Source of the DNA: a virus
Virus record (IMG/VR): IMGVR_UViG_3300031578_000230
Span: 1 to 30,841 of that record
DNA length: 30,841 bases
Strand: one strand, 5' to 3'
A program made the translations under genes and the position numbers. Below are positions 513-24,174 of the stretch, piece after piece (positions within the stretch are counted from its first letter, which is position 1; each line of letters opens with the position of its first letter). The notes beneath the pieces were generated by a model. The model searched no databases, had not been told where the DNA came from, and was given only the letters and a program-made list of their open reading frames with translations.

Positions 513-1028
513 TTATATAATTACTGCATAAGCTTTAGGTTTAATCCACGCTTGCATTTCATAAATATATGCGTAGGCATCAGTTTCTTGTCCCGCATCA
601 CTACCAGAACAATTAGTATTAGCCGAAGCATTAGCAATCATTTGAACTTTATCAGTATAAATCCTACCAAAATCATCGCTTGTTAAAGTAATATGGGCAG
701 CAGATGTACCAGAACCAGCTGCTCCTGTAAAAGTTGTCCAAGCAGACGTATCGTAATTCCAATATTGATATGCCCAATTATTAGTACTATTACCTCCGTA
801 TACACAAGCTGCTCTATGAGAAATAGTAGAAACTCTGAAATCTATTTGTTTAATAATTCTTTTAACAGTAAAAGTGTGGCGTGAAACCATATTTATATTA
901 CTTGGACCTTTATGGCTAGGTACACCACGATACATAGCCGTGTTCCAGTCGCCATCCCAAGAAAATGCTCCATTAGAACCATCTTCGTAATAATGTATAG
1001 TAGACGCTCTCTGAATATAATCTAACAT
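513..1028 (-). CDS. Small tail-tip/fibre accessory protein, unknown
   Basis: A 171-residue protein with no signal peptide or membrane segment. It is rich in aromatic residues, Ser, Thr and Asn, and alternates polar and aromatic residues as in beta-sandwich virion or carbohydrate-binding domains. The segment around residues 75-150 (tyrosine/tryptophan-rich, followed by a Gly/Ser-Ala stretch) is the most compact-looking part. Its ATG overlaps the stop of the long fibre gene in a TAATG arrangement, so translation is probably coupled. That coupling suggests a fibre cap, chaperone or receptor-binding partner of the long fibre. No family was recognised. Confidence 0.75.
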   Translation of the reverse strand: MLDYIQRASTIHYYEDGSNGAFSWDGDWNTAMYRGVPSHKGPSNINMVSRHTFTVKRIIKQIDFRVSTISHRAACVYGGNSTNNWAYQYWNYDTSAWTTFTGAAGSGTSAAHITLTSDDFGRIYTDKVQMIANASANTNCSGSDAGQETDAYAYIYEMQAWIKPKAYAVII

Positions 1029-3523
1029 TAGTTTAAGTCCACCTCTAATTGAACTAGTAAGTTAGTACCTGCAATAACTGCACCCACAGCTTCTATATTT
1101 AAAGTTAGTTCGTCATCTTGGCTTAAAGATACGCTTCCAGAAGGAAAAGTAGTTTGAACTCCAGAAGTGTTACCTGAATCAATATCTAAAGTTGAACCAA
1201 ATGCCCACAAATCAACACCGTTTATCGCTATATTAATTTCAAGATTACTACCTGTTGGTGCGTCTTTAACTGTAGCTTGAGCTTTAGTAATAATACAACC
1301 ACTTGGCCAAGGTACTATAAATTTTCCTGCTATTTCATCTAAAACCTCTAATTCATCATCTTGATACCAAACAAAAACTCTCTTTGCCTGTCCTGTAGAT
1401 AATTTATCTACGCTTACCGTACCATCCCGAAGTAAGCTTCCTTGTATAGCGCCATCATTTATTTCAATACCGCTTGTTCCAGAAGGAAATAACTTCCAAC
1501 CAGACGTATCGGCAACATAATCTGTAGATGTAATATAACTAGTGCTTCCCATAGTTATATAAATATCACCGTCACCACCAGTATTATCGGCTGTAAATTT
1601 CCAACCAGTACTTGCACTAAAATCTTCTGATTCAATATAGCTTTGTGCTATTCCTGATTGTCCTCCTAAAGTCATCTGTAAACTGCCATCGCCTAGAAAA
1701 TACCAACCCCAAGTAGCTCCACTATAAGGGTAATTAGAAGAACGCCAACCAGAATTACTATCCATTTCTATATCTACAGGGTCTCCTGATTCGCCTATAA
1801 TACCACCAGATAAAAAGGATACTGATAATCTGCCTATAGTTACGTCAGAAGCATCTAATAGTCCTCTAATCCACATTGTGGCTTCTGATTTGTCCCAGAA
1901 AAAGCCCTGGCCTGCATAATAATCTCCCATATAAATATCACCAACATCACCACCACCTTGTCCTGGTGCGCCAGAAACATCGTCCATAAATATTTGGAAT
2001 AAGAGATTTTCCGAATCATCGTAAGCAAAGAAAGTAGAAGTATCCATATGAATACGAGAACCTGAAATAGCAGTGAATATACTAGTTGCTAATAAATCGC
2101 CTTTAAGAAAAACATTATCTGAATATAAACCATATCCACTTAATGTTCCAAGTTCTGGGTCAGTTATACCTGCTAAATTACCTAATCTAACTTTAACTTC
2201 TATATCGTCCCAATCTGGCCCCGTCCTAGAAATTATATCTAAAAAGGGAGAATAGTCAGAAGTAGCGTCTAAAATTAAATATCCTTCTCCTGGTTCTCCT
2301 GTTGAAACTACAGTTGTACCTTTGTTCCAAGCATTTACCCCAGTTCCCTTTAAATCTCTTTCTATAGTATAAATAGGTGCACTAACGTCACTTAATATTC
2401 TAAGATATTCTTCCGTTCCACCGTCTTTCATTAAAACAATATCATTCGTAGAAAAAACAATACCTTCAGTAGTCATACTAGAATCTAAGACAGCTAAATC
2501 TTCTACTAAAACTGAAGCGGTAGCTACTATAAGCTGTCCGCCTACGGCAGATACCGATGTTTTCTCAAATACTGTAGCCTTTAAAACTCCACGAATACGA
2601 GCATCTTCAAATTCAGCATACCCATCATCTGTAATACGAAATCCACTAAAATTACTAAAGAAGTTCTGACTTTGAATAGTGTTCTTAGTAATAAGTATAT
2701 TACCTACTCGTGCGCTATCTGTTGCAAACTTAGCTACCTGAATGCCATCAGTATCATAAAAGAATGTACCATATCTATTAAATTCAGCCATTCTATTATC
2801 ATTTTCGTCATAAATTTTAACAGCTTTACTATTTAACTCTATAGTTCCTTGCGTATTAGTAATCTTTAAATCTTCGGATAAACGAATATTTCCGATTAAA
2901 TTATCAGCTAATATATCGCCTATATTATTGCGTAGAACTTGTCGAGTATCTTCTTCAAACTGACCTTTACCGTTACCAAATAACTTAATTTCTTTAAAGT
3001 TTACTATCCAAGCGTCCCACGGATAGTTTTCTAGGTCTTTGTCATCCCTAATATAAACAGTTGTTCCTGGTTTTGGAACCACTATTTTAGCTATTGTTAA
3101 TTTACCATATATAGGAGTTTTACTAATATTTAAGCCATCAGTTCCAAAATTAATATAATAAACTGCTTCGCCATCAGCTAAAGGAACAACTAATAGAGTA
3201 TCTTTAATTAGCGTAAAAATTCTACCACCGACAGTACCTTCCCCTGCTTCTATCATAACTTGGTTAGTGATAGGAGTTGTAGCAGTAACCGTTAAACCTG
3301 TTTTAATTTGAGGGGGGATGGTGTGAAGCATTAAATCCATTATTAGATTAATGATATTAGAAACATCTATAATGGCTTGAGCTGTGGTGGTATCTACGCC
3401 AGAAATAACTTGGCTTCTGTCTAAAGCGCTTGAACCTATCAACTTACCCGTAGGATAAGAAGCACTTTTTAATATCTCTTTATAGACCAGGGTGTAAAGG
3501 TCTTGATATGTCATTGACGCCAT
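1028..3523 (-). CDS. Long tail fibre / central fibre protein
   Basis: An 831-residue virion protein. Residues ~60-200 form a beta-rich domain leading into the motif DTRQVLRNNIGD. Residues ~215-330 carry short repeated beta segments (EFNRYGTFFYDTDG, FRITDDGYAEFEDARIRG) followed by KATVFEKTSVSAVGGQLIV, a pattern I associate with central tail fibre/tip proteins of long-tailed phages. Residues ~560-715 hold repeated Gly/Ser/Trp segments such as STGWKFTADN and TSGWKLFPSG, suggesting trimeric beta-prism repeats. Residues ~730-831 look like a C-terminal jelly-roll tip. Start: GGGAG lies nine bases upstream, and the ATG overlaps the SpeE-like stop (TAATG). Likely role is host recognition; the receptor is unknown. 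Confidence 0.8.
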   Translation of the reverse strand: MASMTYQDLYTLVYKEILKSASYPTGKLIGSSALDRSQVISGVDTTTAQAIIDVSNIINLIMDLMLHTIPPQIKTGLTVTATTPITNQVMIEAGEGTVGGRIFTLIKDTLLVVPLADGEAVYYINFGTDGLNISKTPIYGKLTIAKIVVPKPGTTVYIRDDKDLENYPWDAWIVNFKEIKLFGNGKGQFEEDTRQVLRNNIGDILADNLIGNIRLSEDLKITNTQGTIELNSKAVKIYDENDNRMAEFNRYGTFFYDTDGIQVAKFATDSARVGNILITKNTIQSQNFFSNFSGFRITDDGYAEFEDARIRGVLKATVFEKTSVSAVGGQLIVATASVLVEDLAVLDSSMTTEGIVFSTNDIVLMKDGGTEEYLRILSDVSAPIYTIERDLKGTGVNAWNKGTTVVSTGEPGEGYLILDATSDYSPFLDIISRTGPDWDDIEVKVRLGNLAGITDPELGTLSGYGLYSDNVFLKGDLLATSIFTAISGSRIHMDTSTFFAYDDSENLLFQIFMDDVSGAPGQGGGDVGDIYMGDYYAGQGFFWDKSEATMWIRGLLDASDVTIGRLSVSFLSGGIIGESGDPVDIEMDSNSGWRSSNYPYSGATWGWYFLGDGSLQMTLGGQSGIAQSYIESEDFSASTGWKFTADNTGGDGDIYITMGSTSYITSTDYVADTSGWKLFPSGTSGIEINDGAIQGSLLRDGTVSVDKLSTGQAKRVFVWYQDDELEVLDEIAGKFIVPWPSGCIITKAQATVKDAPTGSNLEINIAINGVDLWAFGSTLDIDSGNTSGVQTTFPSGSVSLSQDDELTLNIEAVGAVIAGTNLLVQLEVDLN

Positions 3524-4224
3524 TATTGTTTTCTCCCTAATACTATTTGCCCACCATCAAGATTAGGCATTTTATAATCAATTGTTGCGCTATTACCTAA
3601 AACATCTTTAACTAGAAGGGCTATAGATTCTGCTATACGAGGATTACATTGTATAGATAAAATGCCATTTTCTCCTAATAAATAAGCTACATCTGCTAAA
3701 AAATCTTTATGATATAACTTCTTTAATTCCCAATTAGTGGGGTCTGGAAAATCAAGTATAATAACGTCAAATATTTTAGACGCATTTCTTGGAACCCAGT
3801 ATAAAGCGTTCTCTATATAAATACTACATTTGGAAAGACTATTTTTATTTAATTCTAATAAACGGGGATAAGTCTTAAAAACCTCTATCATTTTTTTATC
3901 TAACTCAACTAAAGTAATCTCTATATCTGGTTTATGTTCGAAAATAGTTCTAGCAGCTAATCCATCGCCTCCACCTAATATTAGACAGGTTTTAGCTTTA
4001 GTGTTTATAGCAAAAGCAGGTAATGCTAAATTATTATGGTAGTTCTGTTCATCTTCACCTTCTATAAACTGAACAAAACGATTTAAAGTAAGTATTATTT
4101 GTTTCTTATCATCTTCGTAGAACTTCATTAATTGGAGTCCCGTTTCTATTTCATCCCATAATGGAACCCAATCTACTACTTCTTGACCTTCTTTTATCTC
4201 TAATGGTTTTATTTCTAGCACCAT
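3523..4224 (-). CDS. speE: Spermidine synthase-like aminopropyltransferase
   Basis: A 233-residue Rossmann-fold protein of the polyamine synthase family, which transfers an aminopropyl group from decarboxylated S-adenosylmethionine to a diamine. Visible motifs in order are NRFVQF (48-53), DEQNYHNNLALP (58-69, matching the family DE..YHE.L.HP), LGGGDG (83-88), VELD (106-109) and the catalytic-type DFPDP (158-162), then LY near 170 and IQCNP (191-195). The usual GDA before the last strand reads ENA (138-140). Length is slightly short for the family because the N-terminal strands are reduced. It overlaps the SpeD-like gene by 10 bases. The motif set looks catalytically competent; the true acceptor amine is not predictable. 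Confidence 0.88.
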   Translation of the reverse strand: MVLEIKPLEIKEGQEVVDWVPLWDEIETGLQLMKFYEDDKKQIILTLNRFVQFIEGEDEQNYHNNLALPAFAINTKAKTCLILGGGDGLAARTIFEHKPDIEITLVELDKKMIEVFKTYPRLLELNKNSLSKCSIYIENALYWVPRNASKIFDVIILDFPDPTNWELKKLYHKDFLADVAYLLGENGILSIQCNPRIAESIALLVKDVLGNSATIDYKMPNLDGGQIVLGRKQ

Positions 4225-4592
4225 AACCCCTTTACTTTAGTTTCAATCGAACAATCGCAATTAACGTCCATATAGACCGTTGTTTCTAAATTAAAATAAT
4301 CTATAATAAGGTCAGAGACCGTAGTTGTATTAAACTGTTTACAAGAAGAAGCTATTAATCTAACATAATTATGTTCTGGCCAGTACCCTAAATATATACA
4401 GGATTCCTTTAAACCGCATAAAATATCAAATCCTGGGGGAAGTATATTAATGTGTCTATGTGTCTCTGTGACCTTTAAGACTTTAACCACTTTAGTTAAG
4501 AATTTTTCTGCCTCTTCAATAGTCATTAGAGTGGCAGGAGTAAATTCATAAACTACTTCAGTAAGATGTTGTCCTTGTTTATACTTCTTCAT
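4215..4592 (-). CDS. S-adenosylmethionine decarboxylase-like (SpeD-fold) protein, atypical active site
   Basis: A 125-residue protein matching class 1 pyruvoyl AdoMet decarboxylases in length and layout. It has GQHL near the N-terminus (7-10), the self-cleavage region KESCIYLGYWPE (62-73) aligned to the family ESHLTIHTYPE, and a cysteine at 84. That cysteine is 20 residues after Ser64, the spacing I recall between the pyruvoyl serine and the catalytic cysteine. Glu63-Ser64 is kept. The processing histidine is Gly69 here and the auxiliary serine is Asp56, so it is not a standard enzyme. It overlaps the pentapeptide gene by 14 bases with only a weak ribosome-binding site, suggesting coupled translation. 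It may be AdoMet-specific, another amino-acid decarboxylase, or inactive. Confidence 0.75.
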   Translation of the reverse strand: MKKYKQGQHLTEVVYEFTPATLMTIEEAEKFLTKVVKVLKVTETHRHINILPPGFDILCGLKESCIYLGYWPEHNYVRLIASSCKQFNTTTVSDLIIDYFNLETTVYMDVNCDCSIETKVKGLWC

Positions 4593-5064
4593 TTAAAGTT
4601 ACCGTTAAGTTCCATCCTTTAGCTAGGTCACGAAAAAAGTTTTGGTCCATTTTACATCCGAGGCCATAATCGGTACCCAATCTCATAGCACACTCACAAA
4701 ATTTAGCTTGTCTAAAATCGGTATATTGGTATTCAACATCAGTTAAAATAGCTCCAGAAAAATCGGCTTCTCTAAAGTCGCACTTTCTAGCAAACATCGT
4801 ACCCTGAACTTCTGTATCACACCATTGGCTTCGTCTTGCTCTAGAGCCTGATATATTATTTACTTTTCCACGTTCACCTATTATACATTTATTTAACCTA
4901 ACACCGTTCATATCGTCGTTAGTTCGAATAAATCTTTTAATTCTAGCTCCTGACAAGTCTTCGTGTTTAATACTATAATCTTCAATTAAATCTGATATAT
5001 CTAATCCATTCTTGATATATGTTCTTATCTTCTGTCTCTGTTGTTCTGTCATTGGTTTCTTCAT
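4579..5064 (-). CDS. Pentapeptide-repeat protein
   Basis: I chose the ATG at 5064 (161 residues) rather than an upstream in-frame start at 5103, because AAGGAG lies seven bases before it and immediately follows the hub stop codon. After a basic helical N-terminus (about 1-35) the protein carries degenerate A(D/N)LXX-type repeats. These include EDLSGARI, DMNGVRLNK, KCDFREADFSGAIL and YTDFRQAKFCECAM, which would build a right-handed beta-helix over roughly residues 35-125. Many repeats are imperfect and Cys/Arg-rich. Family members include DNA mimics that act on gyrase and many proteins of unknown role. It is the first gene of the cassette with the SpeD/SpeE-like genes, so a virion or cargo role is also possible. 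Confidence 0.85.
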   Translation of the reverse strand: MKKPMTEQQRQKIRTYIKNGLDISDLIEDYSIKHEDLSGARIKRFIRTNDDMNGVRLNKCIIGERGKVNNISGSRARRSQWCDTEVQGTMFARKCDFREADFSGAILTDVEYQYTDFRQAKFCECAMRLGTDYGLGCKMDQNFFRDLAKGWNLTVTLNEEV

Positions 5065-5080
5065 ATTTTTACTCCTTACT

Positions 5081-8000
5081 TTAACTAGCAGGATATCTTG
5101 CAAGGACTAAACTAGTTACTCCTTGCGCTCTTTCTCTTACTGATTCTATAAAGTATTTTACATTTACCTTATTATTATAAGGGTCATTTACATTTACAGT
5201 TTGACCAATCTGTAGGTGAGGTGAATACATTACGTTCACTTTAGCTTTAGTATGGTCTTTATAAAATTCTAATAAAAACGCTTTAGACAAAGCATCTGTT
5301 TCAGCTTGACTATATAAGTTTCTATCGTTAATCTGATTTTGTTTACTTACTCTGTCTCCCAATTTAGGAAGTAATTCATCTTCATCATAAACCGTAGTAT
5401 CTGCCGCTAAACTTTGAGTTACTAACGTTCCTGCGGCTTCACTTGTTCCTGTAGATATTTCACAACCAGTTAAAACATTACCACTTTCTATACCCGTATA
5501 AGTAAAAGATACATCTTTACCGAAATACGCTGTTTCTTCTTCCGCTGATTCTGGTTCACTGAAACCATGAGTGTTAGTTAAATATACTTCTGTATCTCCA
5601 AAAGCTACAGGAGCAGCTAAAGTTGTTGTTGCTATTAAAGTCGCTTCACCTTTTAAAACTATATTATTATAAACTGAGATTTCTGTTACAGCTACAACGT
5701 ATCTCCCTTTTCCATAATTAACTCTTGCTACGTCGTATAAGTTAAATTTTAAGTATCTAGCCTGTAATCCTATACCTAAATCTGCTTCTTCAAACGTAAT
5801 AGCTTTACCGCCACTTACTCTAAATTGTTCTGTTTTATCGCTAATAGGAAAAAAGTCTGTTCCGTTTATAGAAGATTGCATTGAAACTGTAAAATCTACA
5901 TCAAATTTACGATATTCGTCAGGTTTATAAAACCCTCCTACTAAATCTATGGCTTGAACGTCATAAACTGCTCCCATATCTATAGTGGCTAAATGAAATC
6001 CACTAATAGGAGAACCAAAGAACTGAAGTTGTAGCTGAGTATCTCTTCTGCCATCTACTACGGCTCTAATATCTCTAACACCTACCGCTATAGACCAATA
6101 CTCAAAAGTAGCTCTTACAACCAGTTCGTCTGGGTTAGGAACTAAAGATTTATCTACTTTAAATACTACGTCTTCATAATCTATCTCTACTTTACTAGAA
6201 TCATAAAAAACATCATAACCAGCTGTAGAAATAGTTTCTGCTATTGCATTCTGCTCCATACCAGGGAGTGTCCAAACGCCCGTGCCATAATCCATATTAG
6301 GGTCATTAGGTTCTATAGTATATTGAAGCGTACCTTGTAAATCATAAAGATGGATAGGTTGAGTGGGCTCTATAGAACTATGAGGAAAGAAGACCGTATA
6401 ATAGTAATAAGTATATGTACTTGTTTCTTTACTTTTTCCTCCACCTTCTGTAACCGTTTTAACTGTTTGTCTAATCTTAACTGGTACAGAATCAATTCTA
6501 TGTACTTTATTATCAACTGGTATTCCATTTAACCAAATTAAAGGAGTAACGGTATCAGCTATAATTTTACCATATTCATTAGATATAGGGGTAGCATAGA
6601 TTCTCATTCCAGTAGTTGGCTGAGAAGCAAAATCCTTAATAATATACTTATCTTTAATATAATTTATAACGTCTACTGTTGGGTCTGTACCATCAAATTG
6701 AGCAGCTTCTGTTAAATAAGTTTGAGCAGCTTCTGATAATATTCCAGACTTTTCATCGCCTATATACATCAGTTCTTCTTTAGAAGCTATACCTGTATAA
6801 GCATCTAAGTTATCTACGTCATAATCTACGTCGTCACCAAACATTACGTTATTAGGATTCTCATTTTTAGTCCAGATAATAGACCGAGTGAATAAATCTT
6901 CATCTTCAAGATAGTCCATATCTGTTATAAGATTTAAGTCATAATCAGCTCTAGATTTTTGAGTTAAATAAGAAGCCCATATTTTATCGTCGCCTATCGT
7001 TCTAATAATATAATTAGGGGCCAGGTACTTTCTTAAAAAATTAATAGCTTCAAATCTATTATCAAGTTCTCTTTCTCTAAAAACTTTACGATTAATTTCT
7101 ATACCCGTAGCCTGTAATGTCTTAAAAGTGTAATCTGTATGACAGAGTATAGTGTCGTTTAAAAAATCTGCCACTGGTTCGCTTAAAATAATTCTACCAT
7201 ATCTTTGGTCTAAATAAACCACCTCACCCGTATAGCCACTAGGAAGTGTAAAATCAGAAGTATCTAAAGTAGATGTTAAATTATTATATCTTAATGCCCA
7301 TAAAGTACCAGGTGCATAAGTATCGGTGTACTTAACATAACTACCAGAGGCTTTAGCTTTAAGAGCATATGAACCACTTGTTGGAATACCCCCTAAAATA
7401 TAACCTCCACCACTAGCAGCAGTAATATCGTTATAAGTGGTTATGTCTCCATTAATACTTATCTGAATATTATCTCCGCCAGATTCAGGCACAGGAAATC
7501 CTGTTATATCGCTTACATAAAGTTCGGTATTTTCAACATCCGTAATACGAGTAATGGTAACTCCAGCTCTAAAATTTCGTTCTATTGGCGTAACTACAAC
7601 TCCTGTTAAAGTATTACCACTTCCTGTTCCTTGATAAGTTATAGTATAATCGCCTATTTTAGCTGTACCTTCTATTCCAGACCCAGATACAAATTCAAAA
7701 TCAGAAATATCTGTTAAATACATAATAGTAGGGTCGTAATCTTCTTCATTAGCTTGATAAGGTTCTGCTAAAGTGGTAGTATATTCGTCGGTAGGAGAGT
7801 AGTCTTGTGTTAATTGAGTTTCTATATCAGCCTCAAAATCTACTAAGTTAGTAACTAATATATCATCAACAGCACCTTCTACATTTTGAAAGGTATCTGT
7901 TAAGTGATTATCTATTATAGCCTGCGCACTACTTTCTCCAAATAAATAGTTTCCATAGCCATCTACTGCAGTAAGAATACTTTCTATTACATCTTCTATA

Positions 8001-8677
8001 AATAAACCCCTAGTATAATGAAAATAAGTAGCCATAACTTTATAGTTATCTCTAACATTAAGAGGCGCACCTAATTTCATCTGACCAACGTCATAATATA
8101 TTTGAAAGCCGTCAAATTGGTCGTCTGTAAAATCTTCGTGGTTTTTATCTTGAAACTTAATTAAAGGTAACGGATTATCGGCTATAGCATTATTAGCAAA
8201 ATTAAATAATTGAGCTAAAGCGTCATTAGGAGCAGGTAAATAAACTGGCTCCATTTCTTCATTTCTAACTTCTTCTTTATCTCCTTCTACAGCTAAATCT
8301 AAGTTCCAATTTTTAAGAACAGATATATAATCAAGACATTGAAGCGTTATATTTCTGTCGTCGCCTCTTTTGCTAACGCCTCTTTGACTAATAACGCCAT
8401 AAAACTTCTTAAATTCAAAACTATCGCCTTGAAAATATTCAATTAACTCAACAACATCGCCAACATATAATGCGTTTGTTTCACCTTCATTAAAGAAACC
8501 GTCGTTATTAATTAGAGTAAAAGATGCGGCAGCTGAACCATAGTTCTTATCAAAAGATAAGCTCCAATTCTTAACATAAGACGTGTAGTTGGTTCCATTT
8601 ATTTTAAAAATAAATCTAACACTTAATGCTTTAGCAGTTATTTGGTCTTGCGCTGTTTGTGAAAGTTCTCTTGCCAT
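5081..8677 (-). CDS. Tail hub / tip protein with discoidin (F5/8C-like) domain
   Basis: 1198 residues. The N-terminus (1-125) is a beta-barrel-type tail hub domain, with NYTSYVKNWSLSFDKN and NITLQCLDYISVLKN typical of phage tail proteins preceding fibres. Residues ~870-1004 form a discoidin/F5-8C-like domain (VVDGRRDT, TIDMGAVYDVQAIDLV, ARYLKFNLYD, VTEISVYN), a fold that often binds carbohydrate. Three related beta modules (about 315-378, 380-448, 1015-1088) share the pattern strand-SGF-IG-YTG-SGN-LTG. The C-terminus (1125-1198) has QIGQTVNVND and ends like hub proteins. AGGAG lies five bases upstream of the start. It follows the small tail protein, as expected for the hub or Tal-type protein. 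No lytic enzyme domain was recognised. Confidence 0.8.
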   Translation of the reverse strand: MARELSQTAQDQITAKALSVRFIFKINGTNYTSYVKNWSLSFDKNYGSAAASFTLINNDGFFNEGETNALYVGDVVELIEYFQGDSFEFKKFYGVISQRGVSKRGDDRNITLQCLDYISVLKNWNLDLAVEGDKEEVRNEEMEPVYLPAPNDALAQLFNFANNAIADNPLPLIKFQDKNHEDFTDDQFDGFQIYYDVGQMKLGAPLNVRDNYKVMATYFHYTRGLFIEDVIESILTAVDGYGNYLFGESSAQAIIDNHLTDTFQNVEGAVDDILVTNLVDFEADIETQLTQDYSPTDEYTTTLAEPYQANEEDYDPTIMYLTDISDFEFVSGSGIEGTAKIGDYTITYQGTGSGNTLTGVVVTPIERNFRAGVTITRITDVENTELYVSDITGFPVPESGGDNIQISINGDITTYNDITAASGGGYILGGIPTSGSYALKAKASGSYVKYTDTYAPGTLWALRYNNLTSTLDTSDFTLPSGYTGEVVYLDQRYGRIILSEPVADFLNDTILCHTDYTFKTLQATGIEINRKVFRERELDNRFEAINFLRKYLAPNYIIRTIGDDKIWASYLTQKSRADYDLNLITDMDYLEDEDLFTRSIIWTKNENPNNVMFGDDVDYDVDNLDAYTGIASKEELMYIGDEKSGILSEAAQTYLTEAAQFDGTDPTVDVINYIKDKYIIKDFASQPTTGMRIYATPISNEYGKIIADTVTPLIWLNGIPVDNKVHRIDSVPVKIRQTVKTVTEGGGKSKETSTYTYYYYTVFFPHSSIEPTQPIHLYDLQGTLQYTIEPNDPNMDYGTGVWTLPGMEQNAIAETISTAGYDVFYDSSKVEIDYEDVVFKVDKSLVPNPDELVVRATFEYWSIAVGVRDIRAVVDGRRDTQLQLQFFGSPISGFHLATIDMGAVYDVQAIDLVGGFYKPDEYRKFDVDFTVSMQSSINGTDFFPISDKTEQFRVSGGKAITFEEADLGIGLQARYLKFNLYDVARVNYGKGRYVVAVTEISVYNNIVLKGEATLIATTTLAAPVAFGDTEVYLTNTHGFSEPESAEEETAYFGKDVSFTYTGIESGNVLTGCEISTGTSEAAGTLVTQSLAADTTVYDEDELLPKLGDRVSKQNQINDRNLYSQAETDALSKAFLLEFYKDHTKAKVNVMYSPHLQIGQTVNVNDPYNNKVNVKYFIESVRERAQGVTSLVLARYPAS

Positions 8678-9125: not shown

Positions 9126-12100
9126 TTAAAAACCTTGTGTTCCTCTTTGAGCGTCTATAGCGAACCTTTCAGTTTCGCTTCTTTCACTAAAGTAGTAGCT
9201 CTCTTTCATTATATATGTTAATTCTTGTTTAAGTTCAACAAGATTTCTATTTACCCATTCTAAAGAATTATTAGTAATATCTATTCTAGAAGCTATTTGA
9301 GTTGTCTGTTCTCTAACTTCTTCATTTCTAAATGCTGGTTTCTCTGGTTGATTCATAGCACCTAATATCATACCACCTGCAGCTAAACCTAATCCTATCC
9401 AACCTACCACTGGTATTGCTGCTAGACCAACTGCTCCTGCTGTTGCTCCTACTCCCATTGCGCCAAGACCCATACCAAGTGCACCTAATCCTGACATTAC
9501 GCCTGCAGCCATAGCCATACCGCCACCACCTGCTCCTCCTGCTGCTTGATAGGTGCTAAATCCTGTCATTGCACTTTGTATTCCTACTCCTGCCATTTGA
9601 CCGTATGTCATAGAATCTTTGGAAGGTGTGCCAACTTGATTGAATTGACCTCGTCCACTGACCCCTCCTCCATAGCCCATTCTTCCTCCTGTCATCTGTG
9701 AAGCTATGCCTGGATTCCAAATATCACCATAAATATCAGTCATATTCATATCAGTTGTGCTATCGCCATAAGGGGTAAACGGTCTAGTACCTGCTGGTTG
9801 GTAGACTGCTCCAGTTTTTTGTTTAAAAATAGAAGTGTTTGCCATCTTACCAAGAAAACTAGTTGGCCCAGTAAGATTTTTTATTAAACCACCAAATATA
9901 CCGCCAGTGGTACTAGATGACCCACCAGTCACGCCTGCAGCACCTGTGCCCATCCCTACTTGATGCGCATTTATAATTATTTTAGCTCCAGCTGTTATTC
10001 CGTCTAGATGGGCTTGAGCTATAGGGCTTTTTAAAGTGTCGCCAAAAGCAGTCATTATACCGCCAAAAACGCCATCTAAACCTGTAAGATTAGTGGCTAC
10101 GTCAGCAAATATATCTGAAAATTGGTCTTGCCACGCAGTTTTTAAAGCACCACCAAACTTTGTTGCAGCAGTAGAAAAATCAAAGTCTCCTGTTTCAAAT
10201 ATATCTTTAAAAGTATCTTTAAATGCATCTTTAACGTAAGCTCCTTGTTCCTTCAACGCCTTATTTTGGTCTAGAGTAAGTTTTAAACCTTTTTCTTGAA
10301 GCTTAACCACATCTTCTCTTATACCTGCATTTGTTTTAACAAGACGATGAAGTTTCTCTGAATTCTCTACCATAAAATCAGATATGTCTAATTCTTCTTT
10401 GCTAATATCTAATTGCTCTTTTTTCAACTCTACAAATTGGTTATATTCAGCTTGAAACTTTTTCATTTCAATAGCTTCTGCAGAAATACCAAATAAACCT
10501 AAAGTATCTGCTCTATTATCGGCAATAACTCTTTTAATATCAGCATCAAACTTTCTTAGTATAGCTCCAGCGTCTGTACCTTCAGGTACATCTTCTATGT
10601 CAGGCATACCAGGTTTTTGCAACATTACAGACTTTTGTCTTGCTATATATGCAGCAGAACCTGGCGTTAAAGCAGATGCGCCAGTAACATCTAAACTATC
10701 TTTAAGATTCTTTCTATACTCTTCATTACCTATTTTAATGCCTAATGTATTTATTAGTTTTTCCATCGCTGCTTGCGCAGAAATTATACCAGCGGTGTAT
10801 TCTTGGTCAGTTTTAGTCTTAACTATCCATTCCTTATAAAGATTTTGCATAGTCTCTTCATAATTTGTCAAACCATAAGATGCTTGACTATTTTTAATTT
10901 TTTCGTCTGCAATAGCTTTTCTCTGTTTATTTATTTGTTCATAAGGGTCACGTTCTTGTGCTAATTTCATACGTTGCTCAAAACCCTGTATAGCACTTTG
11001 AAAAACAACAGTTCTTCGAGCGTCCATGTCCTTTATTTCTCTTTCAGTGTTTACTTCTTGGGGTTGTGCCGAAGCTGTACCCAAAGCACGAGCTATGGCC
11101 ATTATAGGAGCGAATACAGTATCTAAGCTGCCTTTTTGAGTTTTTTCTCCAGTTGAAGAGACTAATCTATCAAGCCTACTACGATTATTTGCTTTCAAAG
11201 TCAAGTCAACTACACCATCAGTTATAGACTTACCTGAACTCATCATTTGTTTAAGAGCTTGAAGGCCAGTAATTTCTCCCTTTAAATATTGAATAATAGT
11301 AATCAAAGGAGTCATAAGAATTTTAAAAATATCAGCTAAGTCGGTAAAAGCACTTTTTAGTGGTGCAAATCCTTCTTGAAGTGCAGTAACTAATTGGTAC
11401 CATAGACTACCAACAAATGAACCTATCCATTCAGAAAATCTAACAAAAAGTTTCATCAAAGTACCAATACCGTGTTCTATTTTTCCTACTGCTTCATTAA
11501 GCTGCGCAGTTTCTCTAGCATCAGGAGCAACTTGGTTCATAATACCTTGAAATATTTTTAATGCGCCATAAGCTAATAATGCAACTTTACTTACATTCTT
11601 TAATGTGCCACCTAAGTTCATCATAGCAGAATTCATATATCCTGCTTCTCTAATTGCGGCACCTCTAAACTGAGAAGCTGAAGCTTGACCAGTTTTTAGA
11701 ATTTGTTGTTCGTGGCGATTTAATGTCCCGCCCATTTGTGATAATTTATTAAGTCTTGTAGGAGCTACCTCCGCCATTTGTGCTGCCCTATTTTCAAGTC
11801 TAGGATTTAAGCCAATAGATGGAGTGATACCTCTACCTAAAATTAAAGCTCCTACTCCAACACCAGCTGCAGGAACTGATTTTTGAAGCCTTTCACCTAA
11901 AGTAGATTCGCCTGATAACTTTTTATAAGTTTCATGTGCTCTAAACCGTTCTAATTGGTCAAATATATTCTTTAAAAAGCTCATCCATGGTTTTTCAACT
12001 TCATTTAAAACACCCATCCAAATACCAGTAAAAGAATCTCTTATCTTTTTAGCTTGTGCAGGTATATTATCTTCAGCAATTCGTCGCATTACTTCAGCAA

Positions 12101-13073
12101 AATCTAGTGATTTAGTCTTCGTTTCATCTAAAACTCGTTTAAAGGCTTCATAATTATTAAGTAGTAAACCTACTGCTCTACCACCTCTAATACCAAAAGT
12201 ACTCATAACCGTAGAAAGTTGTTCTAAAGAAAGTTTATCACTTTGAATAGCACCATAAAGGCCATCCATAACCTCTATAAAATTAAGAGGTTTAGAAGTG
12301 TCTACGGCTATACCTAATACTCCTAATCTATCAGATTTTCTGGCTAATTGGATAAAGGCATTAACTAAAGAAGTACCTGATTTAGACCCCTTTAACATAC
12401 CTGTATTAAGAACACCGATAGTAGCTACTAAGTCTTCAAAACTTATATCAACAAGAGTTCCTACTGAAGCAACGTATCCCATAGCTGTAGATAACTCTGC
12501 TAATTCTACCTGTTGAGTAGAATAAGTATAAGCAATAATGTCAGCAACTTTTTTAAATTTTTCACCTTCAGTCGTAGCATCTTTTAAACTTTTACCAAAA
12601 ACATTAACGGCACCAGCTACTAATTTAGCTGTTTGTTCTAAATTACCACCTGTACCTACAGCTAAATTTATAACATGATTAAAACCCTCTAACTGTTGGG
12701 TAGCGGTTAAACCTGCAGAACCAAGAGCATATACAACAGAAGCAGTATCTTTAAAACTAACTTTCGACTTAGACGCAGAATCAACAATAGCTTGCTCAAG
12801 AATTTTAAATCCTTCTGCTGTAGTTCGAGTAACAGTGCCAACTCTAGACATTTCTGTCTGAAATGTTAACCATTCTGAGGTCGCTGCAGAAATAGCACGA
12901 GGTAAAGCAAATATAGCTGCACGCATAGCGACCCACAGAGGTATAACTGCTGCTGCACGTAATGCTAATTTAGTCATAGATGCTGTGGCTGCATTGGTCT
13001 GAGCGGTTAATGCGCCCATCCCAACAGTTTGCCCTACTATTTGCCAAATTACTGTTTTAGTTTCTGTTGCCAT
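9126..13073 (-). CDS. Tape measure protein (TP901 family)
   Basis: 1315 residues. Residues ~75-330 show the TP901-type tape-measure core (WLTFQTEMSRVGTVTR, VYALGSAGLTATQQLEGF, AELSTAMGYVASVG, GTSLVNAFIQLARKSDRLG). Alanine-rich hydrophobic stretches lie at ~35-65 and ~475-500. The middle (about 690-960) is helical and charged, and residues ~1165-1240 form a Gly/Ala/Met-rich hydrophobic zone likely to cross the host membrane during DNA entry. At about 0.15 nm per residue, the known relation for tape measures, the tail would be near 200 nm. AGGAG precedes the ATG. It is the largest gene in the window, between chaperone-like and tail-tip genes. No muramidase or peptidase motif was recognised. Confidence 0.93.
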   Translation of the reverse strand: MATETKTVIWQIVGQTVGMGALTAQTNAATASMTKLALRAAAVIPLWVAMRAAIFALPRAISAATSEWLTFQTEMSRVGTVTRTTAEGFKILEQAIVDSASKSKVSFKDTASVVYALGSAGLTATQQLEGFNHVINLAVGTGGNLEQTAKLVAGAVNVFGKSLKDATTEGEKFKKVADIIAYTYSTQQVELAELSTAMGYVASVGTLVDISFEDLVATIGVLNTGMLKGSKSGTSLVNAFIQLARKSDRLGVLGIAVDTSKPLNFIEVMDGLYGAIQSDKLSLEQLSTVMSTFGIRGGRAVGLLLNNYEAFKRVLDETKTKSLDFAEVMRRIAEDNIPAQAKKIRDSFTGIWMGVLNEVEKPWMSFLKNIFDQLERFRAHETYKKLSGESTLGERLQKSVPAAGVGVGALILGRGITPSIGLNPRLENRAAQMAEVAPTRLNKLSQMGGTLNRHEQQILKTGQASASQFRGAAIREAGYMNSAMMNLGGTLKNVSKVALLAYGALKIFQGIMNQVAPDARETAQLNEAVGKIEHGIGTLMKLFVRFSEWIGSFVGSLWYQLVTALQEGFAPLKSAFTDLADIFKILMTPLITIIQYLKGEITGLQALKQMMSSGKSITDGVVDLTLKANNRSRLDRLVSSTGEKTQKGSLDTVFAPIMAIARALGTASAQPQEVNTEREIKDMDARRTVVFQSAIQGFEQRMKLAQERDPYEQINKQRKAIADEKIKNSQASYGLTNYEETMQNLYKEWIVKTKTDQEYTAGIISAQAAMEKLINTLGIKIGNEEYRKNLKDSLDVTGASALTPGSAAYIARQKSVMLQKPGMPDIEDVPEGTDAGAILRKFDADIKRVIADNRADTLGLFGISAEAIEMKKFQAEYNQFVELKKEQLDISKEELDISDFMVENSEKLHRLVKTNAGIREDVVKLQEKGLKLTLDQNKALKEQGAYVKDAFKDTFKDIFETGDFDFSTAATKFGGALKTAWQDQFSDIFADVATNLTGLDGVFGGIMTAFGDTLKSPIAQAHLDGITAGAKIIINAHQVGMGTGAAGVTGGSSSTTGGIFGGLIKNLTGPTSFLGKMANTSIFKQKTGAVYQPAGTRPFTPYGDSTTDMNMTDIYGDIWNPGIASQMTGGRMGYGGGVSGRGQFNQVGTPSKDSMTYGQMAGVGIQSAMTGFSTYQAAGGAGGGGMAMAAGVMSGLGALGMGLGAMGVGATAGAVGLAAIPVVGWIGLGLAAGGMILGAMNQPEKPAFRNEEVREQTTQIASRIDITNNSLEWVNRNLVELKQELTYIMKESYYFSERSETERFAIDAQRGTQGF

Positions 13074-18020: not shown

Positions 18021-18440
18021 TTATACCCCTTTATTTGAATAAGCAGGTTCTGCAGGTAAACAAATTGCCAAAAGTTCGGAATTAGATTCTAAAGAAATAG
18101 TAGAATGCATTACTGACGCTGGAATTTTGGCACATTCTTTTTCTTTTAAAATTCTATAACCATTATGAGGTAAAGTTATTCCAAAAGTCCCTTTTAAGCA
18201 AATTAAATACTCTACAATACCTTCGTGACAATGTATAGGATATTCTGCACTTTCGTTTGGACAAGAAGCTATAGTGACGGAACATTCTTCTGATTCAAAT
18301 ACGGTGTTTGTAGTGATAGAATTTTCTATTTCTAAACGTCTACGTCCATTTACTTTAACTAAAACTTGACCTAAAGTAATTAACTCGCTGATAGTTTGGT
18401 GTTTTTCTTGTAATTGATTTAAAGTTGTTTTAATTTCCAT
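18021..18440 (-). CDS. Cupin-domain protein
   Basis: Start chosen at 18440 (139 residues): GGAG lies five bases before this ATG, whereas the longer form at 18467 has no clear site. Residues ~45-130 form a single cupin barrel. Motif 1 shows His70, His72, Glu77 and Gly84 in the HxH(x4)E(x6)G spacing, and motif 2 has Pro107 and His112. That predicts a metal-bound small-molecule or sugar site; the substrate is unknown. The gene overlaps the Ig-like protein gene by 11 bases inside the head-tail joining block. It may be virion-associated or metabolic cargo. Confidence 0.75.
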   Translation of the reverse strand: MEIKTTLNQLQEKHQTISELITLGQVLVKVNGRRRLEIENSITTNTVFESEECSVTIASCPNESAEYPIHCHEGIVEYLICLKGTFGITLPHNGYRILKEKECAKIPASVMHSTISLESNSELLAICLPAEPAYSNKGV

Positions 18441-18771
18441 AAATCTCCATAAGGTTACGCATTTCAAACGTTGTCATATCAACATAAGTTCTTTCATTAA
18501 CAGTTACGGAAATAAAAGCAGTATATACACCTGGCTCGTCAGTAACTCCACCTTGTGTACTTTGCCATAAATAACTATAAACGCTAGGAGTAACTTCAGT
18601 CATAGCTACATTATCAACTTTTACTCTATCCCACGCATCTTGAATTAGAATCGTAATGGTATCTGCGGACTCTAATTCATTTAATAATACTGTTTCAATT
18701 TCAACAGTCGTACCTAAAACATATTCTTTAGGACTAATAGTGCTTTTAGTTTTAACAAATTGTATGCCCAT
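18430..18771 (-). CDS. Small Ig-like beta-sandwich protein
   Basis: Start chosen at 18771 (113 residues), one base after the connector stop and preceded by GAGGGGG; a longer in-frame start at 18798 would overlap the connector. The sequence alternates strands and turns (VLGTTVEIETVLLNE, ITILIQDAWDRVKVD, SVYSYLWQST, GVYTAFISVTVNER), a pattern typical of Ig-like or invasin-like domains on phage head and tail proteins. Likely a decoration or adaptor protein of the head-tail region. No specific family was recognised. Confidence 0.65.
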   Translation of the reverse strand: MGIQFVKTKSTISPKEYVLGTTVEIETVLLNELESADTITILIQDAWDRVKVDNVAMTEVTPSVYSYLWQSTQGGVTDEPGVYTAFISVTVNERTYVDMTTFEMRNLMEIYGN

Positions 18772-20572: not shown

Positions 20573-22387
20573 TTAAGCCTGGTCTTTTCCATAAGCTTTT
20601 TCTCTAACTCTTTTACCCGTTGCAACTGCTTCATCTACTGTACCTTTATCTGCACTACCTTTCGTGAGGTCGACTTTCTCGGCTTCAGTCTTAGGTGCTT
20701 TTGATGCAGCTTCTTTTAACTCAGCGTTTTCTTTCCTTAAAAGAGCAAGTTCGTACTTAACATCGTCCAGTATGTCGGCATCTTCCATACCCTCTGCGGT
20801 GTCACCAAGTGTCCCTTTTCTTTCAGTCAATTTAGCTTCTGTTATTTCAGCATCTCTACGGTCTAATTCAGCTTGCACTTCATTAGCCTTTGTAGTGATA
20901 GTTTCTAGCTCTGCTTTTAAAGTGGCTATTTCTGTTTCTTTCGCAACTGCGGCACTAGCAGCTTCCGTCTTTGCAGCTTCCTGCGCATCCGTAAGTTCCT
21001 GAACCTTTGCAGTAAGAACGTCCATTTCTTTCAGAACGTCGGCGAATAAAGTAGCCTGCTCTTCAACAGTACTCTGTTCGTATTTCTTTAATATATCTTT
21101 CATATCTAGCTCCTTCGCTTTATTTAATATTCTTTCCATTGTTTTGTCATAAGATACACCCAACTGTTTGAACGTGTCCTTGACGTTATCTTGTTCTAGA
21201 CGTGCTAAGGCAATTCGTACATGAGTTGAATCATTTAGAGGAAACATACGTACCTTACGTCGTTTCCCACTAGTTTCACATTTAATTTTCTTAATTACTG
21301 CAAAATCATTATCATGCAGTTTTGTTCTTTCATCTACACTTAAATAAGCCATTTCAGGTAAATTAGTATCTGCGTAATCCATTGCGGTTTGCACAAATGC
21401 TTCTAATTCATCGAAGCTTCCATCGAATTTATTAAATTTATCTAAAAAGGTTTCTGTAGATGCTGTTCTAGACATCATATCATCTTCATCTTCATCTTCA
21501 TCGTCGCACGGCTTACCTTTCTTTATGACCACAGACTTTGGTGTTAAGTCTACACTTACCACAGTCCCACTTGGCCTATAAGTTATGATAGCTGTACTGT
21601 TGTCAAAATCTATAGAGCTTACTTCTCTCCAATTTTCCATTTCGTCTTCCCCGTCAGGATAAGGAACTTCAGATAACGCTCTAAGTATCATATCAAATTC
21701 GTATTCACAATATTTAGCCTTTTCTAAAGCACTCTTAGTTTCCTCTGAAACTTTTATATTTTTTTGAGCTTTAGTTAACTCTTTTTTATCGTGAATATAT
21801 TCTTCTGGTTCAGTCATAACTTTAGCAAATTCTAAAACTCTACTATTCTTTGCTAATTCTAAGACCCCAGCTCCTGGGAATGCAGGTTCAGAAGCTATAA
21901 GTAATGCACCACCAGCAAATTCAATGTCTACTAAATCGTAGTCACCATCTGTTCTTATTACGTGGTCGCCCCATGCTTCGAAACTTATTCCTAATTTACC
22001 TTGAGCCATACAATCTTTAATTATATCATAATCTTCAGGAAAATTACCTTTAAAGAATATACCGTAGCATATTAATTCGTCGCCCTCTAATTCAGCGTCT
22101 AAAAAATATCCTACAACTCTTTTTCTTAGGTGGTCAAAATCAACCGCCTTTCCTCTTAGTGTACCTAATGCTTTTTCAACTTCGGCTGTAGGTAAAGAAC
22201 AACCATTTAGGTTAGTTCTATCTACAAAAGCATAAGTACCCCTGAATATAGCTAAGTCATTGGCGGGTAATTTTACGCCGAACTTTGATGCTAATTCTTG
22301 AAGTTTTTCTCCGTCGCTACCCTGCTCTAAAAAAGAGTATCTGGTATTGTGCGACATATCTTTAAGTAATACTTCAAATTTCTTCAT
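20573..22387 (-). CDS. Fused prohead protease and scaffold
   Basis: 604 residues. Residues ~45-175 resemble a prohead maturation protease (FRGTYAFVDRTN, AVDFDHLRKRVVGYF, GKLGISFEAWG), with His86 and Ser135 as likely catalytic residues. Residues 294-303 form an acidic run. Residues ~345-400 carry a conserved module (MAYLSVDERTKLHDNDFAVI then RMFPLNDSTHVRIALARLEQ) seen in other phage head proteins. Residues ~450-560 are coiled coil, typical of scaffold, and the C-terminus is basic. So one polypeptide appears to supply both protease and scaffold and would be degraded on maturation. It overlaps the portal gene by one base (ATGA). Confidence 0.75.
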   Translation of the reverse strand: MKKFEVLLKDMSHNTRYSFLEQGSDGEKLQELASKFGVKLPANDLAIFRGTYAFVDRTNLNGCSLPTAEVEKALGTLRGKAVDFDHLRKRVVGYFLDAELEGDELICYGIFFKGNFPEDYDIIKDCMAQGKLGISFEAWGDHVIRTDGDYDLVDIEFAGGALLIASEPAFPGAGVLELAKNSRVLEFAKVMTEPEEYIHDKKELTKAQKNIKVSEETKSALEKAKYCEYEFDMILRALSEVPYPDGEDEMENWREVSSIDFDNSTAIITYRPSGTVVSVDLTPKSVVIKKGKPCDDEDEDEDDMMSRTASTETFLDKFNKFDGSFDELEAFVQTAMDYADTNLPEMAYLSVDERTKLHDNDFAVIKKIKCETSGKRRKVRMFPLNDSTHVRIALARLEQDNVKDTFKQLGVSYDKTMERILNKAKELDMKDILKKYEQSTVEEQATLFADVLKEMDVLTAKVQELTDAQEAAKTEAASAAVAKETEIATLKAELETITTKANEVQAELDRRDAEITEAKLTERKGTLGDTAEGMEDADILDDVKYELALLRKENAELKEAASKAPKTEAEKVDLTKGSADKGTVDEAVATGKRVREKAYGKDQA

Positions 22388-24174
22388 TATTTCTCCTTCA
22401 TTTCGTCTTCATCTTTGTCTGAAAGTATGAATAACTCTTTATTAGTCAACTTGTTTACTAAACTAGCGCCTTCAATAATAGCAGTATTTAAAGAAGCGTT
22501 AGATTTCTTTTTAACCCACTTACCGTCTTTATTTTTACTAGCTATTTTTTGAATAACGGTCCAAGCAGCTTTTCTAGCATAATCTTCTCCATTAGGATAA
22601 GCCTTATTAAAGACTTCCATCCAAACTTTTTGTAGAGTGCTAGACATTACGTTAGTTACGGTTTTAGGTAAATCTTTTACCATATCGTAAGGAGCTTGTA
22701 CATAAACTTTACCTGATATACTTTCGTCTGCAATAGTAGCAAAGTTCTTTGCTTCTGGTCCAGTTCTATCTGGTAGTTTATCTTCGTCTTCAATATTAGT
22801 CGGTTTCTGGTCAGGGTCTTCTTCAGGACTTCTAGTTTGCTCCTGATTCTGAATAACAGGCGGAAATAATAATATATCGTCTCCATCAGCTGTTTCCTGA
22901 ATTCTACGGTCACGTTCTTGACCATAACTTGTTTCACCTACAATTTCTACAAAAGTTTTCTTAGACATAACGCCTCTATCATATAAAGAGCGTAACATAG
23001 TCTTATAATCATCACTCATAAAAGCTTTAACTGGAGTGGTTCTAACAGCAATAGAATTCTTGCTACCAAAATACTTAGGATGAGTCTTCTGATTTTCTAT
23101 TACTATAGCTAAGAGTACGTCTCTGATAAGCGCTTTAAAATCATTAACTCCTGAATTTAATTCACCTATAAAGGGTTTAGGATTAAGTGTACCTTCTCTT
23201 CTGCTAGTTTCTGCTCCTGCGACTATATCTATCATACCTATACCACCTAATATACGCTTTTCTATAGGAGCATATAAAGTTGGTTTTAATATTCTTTCGT
23301 ACTCAGGTATCAAATGTTCAATATCGGTATCAAAGTTAGTTATATAGGAAGGAACTCCTGGAGTATTGGTTCTGTTATTTATTAATAAACCGAACTTTTC
23401 TTTAACTGCATTTAAATCCTCGTCACTATAAATAAACTCTGACCTATTCTCTTTTGCTAATGCCTCAGTACCTTTTTTAACAACCATTAGATACTCTAAA
23501 GCCTTCGCTACTACAATTTCACCTTTAGCAACTAAATTTTTTAAAAAGATTGCATTTTTATACAACCCTCTTTGTATAATAAAAGGAGTTGGATAATTTA
23601 TGCCCCAAGCCGTATAAGGCTTTTGAACAAAAATCTTTTCACTTCTACTTGTAGGTAAAGCAAGATTCTTTTTCTTATCTTTAATATCTATTATTATAGA
23701 ATATTTTTCATCACCTAAAGTAACCGTTGCTTGGTTACTTTTAACTTCAATATCTTCACCATCTACAAACCACATTTTTACAGGTAAGCGGATGCCGTCC
23801 ACATCCTGCCACGCAGTTCTTAGTAATAGTAAAGATGAACCTTTCCATCTTTCTCTGTAATATTCTTTAGCTAAAGCCTCAATACCTATCGGTATTTTTC
23901 CTAACAAATCGGTGTTAATGCTCTGTAACCAATTATTTAATAACTCGCTTAAAGCTACATTATTAGTTTCTACGGAAAAGTCTACATCAGATGCAGATGA
24001 TATTCCAAAATCTAATAATGAGGCAATAAGACCGCTTTCATCGTTTCGCATCAACTGTTTAACACTTAGTACTTGCGTCCTGTAGTCGGTTGGCACTGTA
24101 ACGACACTACCTTGCATTAGAGCAATCATGTCGAGGAGCCAGGACATCGAGGGACTGAATCTGGGAATTGTCAT
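22387..24174 (-). CDS. Portal protein with C-terminal ChaB-like domain
   Basis: 595 residues. Position after terminase, size and the central segments (DVDFSVETNNVALSELLNNW, ALAKEYYRERWKGSSLLLLR, GVMSKKTFVEIVGETSYG) fit a portal: a dodecameric ring at the capsid vertex through which DNA passes. Residues ~440-480 are a charged Pro/Asp/Glu linker. Residues ~489-558 match the ChaB fold (APYDMVKDLPKTVTNV, then KVWMEVFNKAYPNG and KAAWTVIQKIASKNKDGKW), an unusual extension. AAAGGAC precedes the ATG. The last residues are acidic and overlap the protease-scaffold start by one base. Confidence 0.82.
   Translation of the reverse strand: MTIPRFSPSMSWLLDMIALMQGSVVTVPTDYRTQVLSVKQLMRNDESGLIASLLDFGISSASDVDFSVETNNVALSELLNNWLQSINTDLLGKIPIGIEALAKEYYRERWKGSSLLLLRTAWQDVDGIRLPVKMWFVDGEDIEVKSNQATVTLGDEKYSIIIDIKDKKKNLALPTSRSEKIFVQKPYTAWGINYPTPFIIQRGLYKNAIFLKNLVAKGEIVVAKALEYLMVVKKGTEALAKENRSEFIYSDEDLNAVKEKFGLLINNRTNTPGVPSYITNFDTDIEHLIPEYERILKPTLYAPIEKRILGGIGMIDIVAGAETSRREGTLNPKPFIGELNSGVNDFKALIRDVLLAIVIENQKTHPKYFGSKNSIAVRTTPVKAFMSDDYKTMLRSLYDRGVMSKKTFVEIVGETSYGQERDRRIQETADGDDILLFPPVIQNQEQTRSPEEDPDQKPTNIEDEDKLPDRTGPEAKNFATIADESISGKVYVQAPYDMVKDLPKTVTNVMSSTLQKVWMEVFNKAYPNGEDYARKAAWTVIQKIASKNKDGKWVKKKSNASLNTAIIEGASLVNKLTNKELFILSDKDEDEMKEK

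Follow-up and report, generated by a model that had tools for sequence, protein, structure and literature searches.

SpeD is the commonest polyamine gene in phages, and both enzymes of the SpeD-SpeE pair from an uncultured Caudovirales phage have been shown to be active (PMC9992855); a SpeE has also already been reported from an ocean phage (PMC11360552). In bacteria, operons of seven-transmembrane (7TM) aminopropyltransferases (SPFH/PspA-DUF4178-DUF350) have been described, for which aminopropylation of other substrates has been proposed (PMC11237479). In animal spermine synthase, an N-terminal domain resembling S-adenosylmethionine (AdoMet) decarboxylase (AdoMetDC) has lost its activity and is still essential, through dimer formation (PMC12803844). 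Here we consider a locus in the 30,841-base IMG/VR virus record IMGVR_UViG_3300031578_000230 (the window; the remainder of this phage genome, in which a second SpeD may lie, is beyond the record), in which intact, minus-strand open reading frames (ORFs) for a pentapeptide-repeat protein, a SpeD-like protein and a SpeE-like protein form an overlapping series between hub and tail-tip genes. Judged by its sequence, the SpeE-like protein is a soluble member of the 7TM-fused aminopropyltransferase (PRK03612) clade, and the SpeD-like protein next to it lacks His68 (Thermotoga maritima numbering, used for all SpeD sites). In the literature searched, we found no report of a soluble 7TM-clade SpeE in virion operons or adjoining a His68-less SpeD.

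The SpeE-like gene (3523-4224, minus strand) encodes 233 amino acids that score 73.2 bits against Spermine_synth PF01564 (cut-off 22.9; E 2.5e-20). Its AlphaFold model has a predicted local distance difference test score (pLDDT) of 92, and the best fold match is to the Pyrobaculum SpeE (7xif), with a template-modelling (TM) score of 0.84, which places the protein within the SpeE fold, as an earlier, sequence-only reading of this DNA had proposed. In the spermidine synthase (SpdS) of Plasmodium falciparum, Tyr102, His103, Asp127, Asp196 and Asp199 touch the aminopropyl group of decarboxylated AdoMet (dcAdoMet) and putrescine (PMC4356361). These residues align with Tyr62, His63, Asp87, Asp158 and Asp161 of the phage protein, and the catalytic Asp pair (Asp158, Asp161) is thus present. 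Because the transfer-contact residues are retained, the active site is probably that of a competent aminopropyltransferase, and there is a strong likelihood that the protein would be catalytically active as one. On the adenine side, SpdS Asp178 is replaced by Asn139, and a sister phage has the same Asn. The chain ends with the catalytic core and lacks the C-terminal region into which solved SpeEs continue; in human spermidine synthase (SPDS) that region contributes to the dimer surface (PMC12812037).

Four observations place this protein with the 7TM-fused enzymes. First, the NCBIfam models ranked PRK03612 (144 bits) above PRK00811 (104) and TIGR00417 (80.4), and the cut-offs of the two canonical models (260 and 249.55 bits, respectively) were missed. 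The PRK03612 cut-off of 472 bits was missed as well, with much of the shortfall explained by an absent half: the match begins at profile position 262 of 522, and there is no N-terminal seven-helix membrane domain. The SpeEs of Microcystis phage MaAM05 and of phage contig L028, in contrast, reverse the model order and score best with the canonical models. Second, the protein carries the motif DFPDPTN, and D[FLY]PDP was shared by all the 7TM members tabulated and absent from the canonical enzymes, which have Dx[ST]DPxG. The same motif occurs in other viral SpeEs (L037, L038, L013-L018 and L040), and the sister phage, L036, has DFPDA. Third, a branch of the tree with support 99/98 set the 7TM members, together with the SpeEs of the window, L036 and the D[FLY]PDP-bearing viral contigs, apart from the rest. 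Fourth, a canonical spermidine synthase identity was rejected when the window pair was forced into the canonical clade (approximately unbiased test, p 0.0019). Compared with the 7TM-fused bacterial enzymes, with which it shares clade, catalytic motif and aminopropyl-transfer residues, the phage protein is small and has neither the membrane domain nor the C-terminal region.

SpeE lay within an ORF of at least 450 amino acids in 77 of the 80 bacterial loci fetched, in a scan whose patterns were built from mostly 7TM sequences, and an independent plasmid tblastn likewise placed 7TM-type proteins at the top. A SpeD gene was present in the retrieved stretch at 47 of the 80 bacterial loci, and every bacterial SpeD compared has His68, unlike that of the window. 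As a separate observation, Ser replaces the catalytic Cys83 in Bacteroidota SpeDs near 7TM-SpeE genes (L088, L100, L115, L133). According to the summary in PMC12803844, which cites Li et al. 2019, bacterial homologues of fungal membrane-aminopropyltransferase fusions have experimentally no role in spermidine/spermine biosynthesis; from that second-hand description, we take these homologues to be the PRK03612 family. We would put at about even the chance that the acceptor of the phage enzyme is something other than putrescine.

The SpeD-like gene (4215-4592, minus strand; 125 amino acids) matches AdoMet_dc PF02675 (2.8e-8). Its AlphaFold model (pLDDT 84) superimposes on T. maritima AdoMetDC 1vr7_B with a VIA Z of 13.3 and a root-mean-square deviation of 2.3 over 109 residues, so that here, too, the fold named in the sequence-only reading held up. 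The protein scores 26.9 bits with NCBIfam TIGR03330, below the cut-off of 75.65, and its identity to the other aligned SpeDs is only ~11-25%. It keeps Glu62, Ser63, Glu72 and Cys83; Gly replaces His68, and Asp replaces Ser/Thr at position 55. In an alignment of 62 SpeD homologues, Glu62-Ser63 was present in all 62 and His68 in 59. The three without His68 are those of the window (Gly) and of two phage contigs, L016 and L042 (Asp in both), in which position 55 is Asp, Leu and Leu, respectively, never Ser/Thr. In the T. maritima enzyme, processing requires S63, H68 and C83, which also take part in catalysis (PMC10407285), and the human AdoMetDC mutant H243A stalls at the ester stage and needs hydroxylamine to finish chain cleavage (PMC3975893). 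Loss at position 55 alone is weak evidence since T. maritima S55A is still activated, even though human Ser229 is required (PMC3975893). Given the known mechanism, Gly at position 68 together with Asp at position 55 indicates that the protein is probably unable to form the pyruvoyl cofactor by the known route, and it would very likely be inactive as a decarboxylase and make no dcAdoMet. Loss of His68 also argues against activity as a SpeDC pyruvoyl ornithine decarboxylase, for which Gln, Thr, Phe and Tyr are given as diagnostic in Fig. 8 of PMC10407285.

These losses bear directly on the pathway put forward in the sequence-only reading, in which SpeD and SpeE act in sequence at a late stage of infection. 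Taken at face value, such a pathway would yield spermidine or some related polyamine, which could neutralise DNA or serve in translation. Such a pathway has precedent in the active Caudovirales phage pair (which lies outside our alignment) and in MaAM05, whose genes are annotated SpeD, SpeD, SpeE and SpeB, and polyamines can be present in phage virions (PMC7226272). The adjacency of the two genes in the window is also that of the Caudovirales phage, MaAM05, and contigs L028, L048 and L055. However, the DxPDP motif is missing from the SpeEs of L028, L048 and L055, and the SpeDs of these contigs keep His68. With the substitutions at positions 68 and 55, a SpeE in a clade whose bacterial members are reported (in the PMC12803844 summary) to stand outside spermidine/spermine synthesis, and no SpeD gene in the L036 record, an active SpeD-then-SpeE pathway is improbable at this locus, and this claim of the sequence-only reading did not survive.

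Some of these other phage loci merit description in their own right. MaAM05 (L008, 3781-6559) has its SpeD, SpeD, SpeE and SpeB genes in a row, a near-complete polyamine module, and its second SpeD, which is different (ESHITFHSF..SCKHFD), may act on something else. In L028, L048 and L055, a gene beside the SpeD-SpeE pair resembles, by eye, a ureohydrolase-like family (ISIDIDYAYSP...), and in L048 the pair lies a few kb from a gene resembling, by eye, a tail sheath. Viral contigs L022, L023 and L024 (5806-7047) encode a single-gene SpeE-SpeD fusion of 413 amino acids, in which ESHFTCHSWPE shows His68 to be kept.

The SpeD-like model also matches the phage SAM lyase 6zm9 (Z 8.3) and, with Glu72 retained, the protein could be imagined as a counter-defence factor that binds or cleaves AdoMet and has no connection with SpeE. 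The match to class 1b AdoMetDC is far better (Z 13.3), however, and the overlap with the SpeE gene points to a related role; we regard a counter-defence function as very improbable.

The closest relative of the locus is the sister contig L036, a 40,458-base record with the same order of tape measure, 129-amino-acid protein, hub, pentapeptide, SpeE and tail-tip genes. Identities to the window are 47% for the hub, 40% for the pentapeptide protein, and 42% each for SpeE and the tail-tip protein. Only a short gap separates the pentapeptide and SpeE genes in L036, and no SpeD match was found in its 40-kb record, which may be incomplete; therefore either SpeD is not obligatory for SpeE or the record is missing part of the genome. 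We checked 17 viral records with a SpeE for a pentapeptide match, and L036 alone had one. Consequently, the sequence-only reading's view of the three genes as a single unit fails, and we reject the trio as a fixed unit given an L036 slot without SpeD. That reading would also have been refuted by related phages carrying the genes as unlinked, decayed remnants; SpeE, conserved in place, is no such remnant, and SpeD may be one. Alignment scans with the hub and pentapeptide proteins returned L036 as the only relative. Scanning IMG/VR with the SpeD or SpeE sequence alone gave no relatives, nor did tblastn of SpeD against phages and plasmids, searches of phages with the terminase, hub and pentapeptide proteins, or a search of IMG/VR with a Gly68-motif DNA pattern; the first SpeD alignment was too variable to serve as a scan query. 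We claim no origin for the SpeD-like gene because in the SpeD tree the window branch is very long and joins other long branches.

That L036 keeps the pentapeptide and SpeE genes in the slot without SpeD suits the idea that a once functional SpeD-SpeE module gave rise to the pair, in which SpeE alone still matters and SpeD is a decaying passenger. The weak ribosome-binding site before the SpeD-like gene and the loss of two processing positions would fit this as well. Yet the frame is intact, for which the chance probability over 125 random codons of the same base composition is ~9e-5, the fold is still predicted at pLDDT 84, and SpeDs with the same losses are under strong purifying selection elsewhere, and so we think a passenger unlikely.

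That selection was seen in a podovirus-like lineage unrelated to the window (L013-L019, L040, L042), where a 7TM-clade SpeE lies between virion genes that include a weak T7 gp14 match (E 0.027). L016 and L042 each have a SpeD without His68, and it overlaps the stop of the SpeE gene. The ratio of nonsynonymous to synonymous substitution (dN/dS) between these two SpeDs is ~0.1 for the full gene and 0.07 when the part shared with the following gene is left out; on these values, the His68-less SpeD of L016/L042 is under purifying selection. L014/L015, L040 and L037 have a His68-keeping SpeD elsewhere in the contig. Among phages with a 7TM-type SpeE, the SpeDs that overlap SpeE lack His68 (window, L016, L042), and distant SpeDs have it (L031, L032, L143, L037). 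Taken together, the comparison of these sequences suggests that SpeE/SpeD-like pairs in unrelated phages are a recurring, selected arrangement and not a simple spermidine pathway. In L016 (4856-5260) and its relatives, we also noted a conserved gene two genes upstream of SpeE, acetyltransferase-like by eye, with no Pfam match.

Our best overall explanation, which we hold tentatively, is that the phage makes a soluble aminopropyltransferase together with its tail proteins, uses dcAdoMet from the host, and retains a dead SpeD as a non-catalytic partner. A minimal soluble enzyme of the 7TM-fused clade would be translated alongside the tail hub and tail-tip proteins; host AdoMet decarboxylase would supply dcAdoMet, and the enzyme would pass its aminopropyl group on to an acceptor amine while particles are being assembled. 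The SpeD-like protein may bind the SpeE-like enzyme much as the dead AdoMetDC fold is associated with the aminopropyltransferase in animal spermine synthase. The missing C-terminal region, whose human SPDS counterpart aids dimer formation, favours this reading. By this analogy, we consider a SpeD-SpeE partnership plausible, if somewhat short of probable. The animal enzyme is one chain, whereas the phage has two genes with a 10-nucleotide (nt) overlap, an aminopropyltransferase of the 7TM clade and a putative partnership. The fullest version, in which the aminopropyltransferase would be a split enzyme, encoded in the tail operons of unrelated phages and including a pseudo-AdoMetDC subunit, that aminopropylates a virion component or other acceptor during assembly and does not make spermidine, is a good deal less likely, and we would call it a long shot.

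Several points count against a dead SpeD partner. The SpeE of L036 is just as short as that of the window, and the L036 record gave no SpeD match. The low dN/dS comes from the L016/L042 lineage and not from that of the window, and the pattern of adjacent and distant SpeDs amounts to about five independent cases. The adjacent SpeDs of L028, L048 and L055 keep His68, though the SpeE type differs. Over 98 residues, the SpeD-like model does match the AdoMetDC-like domain of the animal enzyme (Z 10.1), but no better than it matches other AdoMetDC folds; any protein with this fold would be expected to match in this way, and the match says nothing of function.

A dead SpeD could instead act on the host enzyme. 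In trypanosomatids, AdoMetDC is activated by heterodimerising with a paralogue that has no catalytic activity, the prozyme (PMC10820115), and Lentisphaerota have degenerate SpeD domains fused to active ones (PMC10407285). By the same token, the SpeD-like protein, which retains the AdoMetDC fold, Ser63 and Cys83, and whose His68-less counterpart is under selection in the L016/L042 lineage, might bind a host class 1b SpeD and raise or block its activity, so setting the supply of dcAdoMet and leaving SpeE itself untouched. The trypanosomatid prozyme, too, is a homologue of AdoMetDC that lacks activity and belongs to polyamine metabolism, but it is eukaryotic, and its partner is AdoMetDC rather than an aminopropyltransferase. 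Moreover, at ~11-25% identity to other SpeDs, a common dimer interface with a host enzyme is not obvious, and we think a prozyme-like role rather unlikely.

The small soluble phage version would be a convenient protein with which to seek the natural substrate of the 7TM-fused aminopropyltransferases, a widespread group for which none is apparently on record. A dead SpeD beside SpeE, in two lineages of phage, would be a counterpart to the AdoMetDC-like domain of animal spermine synthase. For phage SpeDs generally, annotation as a decarboxylase needs a check for His68 first.

The setting of the three genes is as the sequence-only reading had it: coordinates, overlaps and flanks of a co-directional series between virion genes were all borne out. 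All long genes of the window are on the minus strand, and the order with respect to transcription is tape measure (9126-13073, minus strand), 129-amino-acid protein, hub-like, pentapeptide, SpeD-like, SpeE-like and tail-tip fibre. Upstream, the putative tail/baseplate hub protein (5081-8677, minus strand; 1198 amino acids) has a weak match to E217 gp41 (E 0.04), and its stop at 5081 lies 16 nt upstream of the pentapeptide ATG. The pentapeptide-repeat gene (4579-5064, minus strand) encodes 161 amino acids from an ATG with a GGAG site, scores 25.2 bits against Pentapeptide PF00805 (cut-off 20.2; 1.2e-5), and overlaps the SpeD-like gene by 14 nt. Its product and that of L036 have in common the C-terminal motif KFCE..RLGT.YG.G..FF.DL..GWN. 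Downstream, the SpeE stop shares one base with the ATG of the tail-tip fibre gene (1028-3523, minus strand; 831 amino acids; PF09327, 9.6e-7). The Pfam matches of all three cassette proteins exceed the curated cut-offs, and with Pfam and fold matches far above chance, chance ORFs are ruled out as their source.

Promoter-like matches in the window were at chance level (28 against 27.6 expected from shuffling), terminator-like matches were also at shuffled expectation, and an Rfam search of the window gave no match. The cassette is likely co-expressed with the tail genes, and its position among them makes late expression highly probable. Elsewhere in the window, a small protein encoded at 18021-18467, in the head/tail gene region, is cupin-like by eye (HCHEG...E motif), with no Pfam match. 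Downstream of the putative terminase, the gene at 22387-24174, portal-like by position, encodes a C-terminal ChaB domain (PF06150, 5.3e-7).

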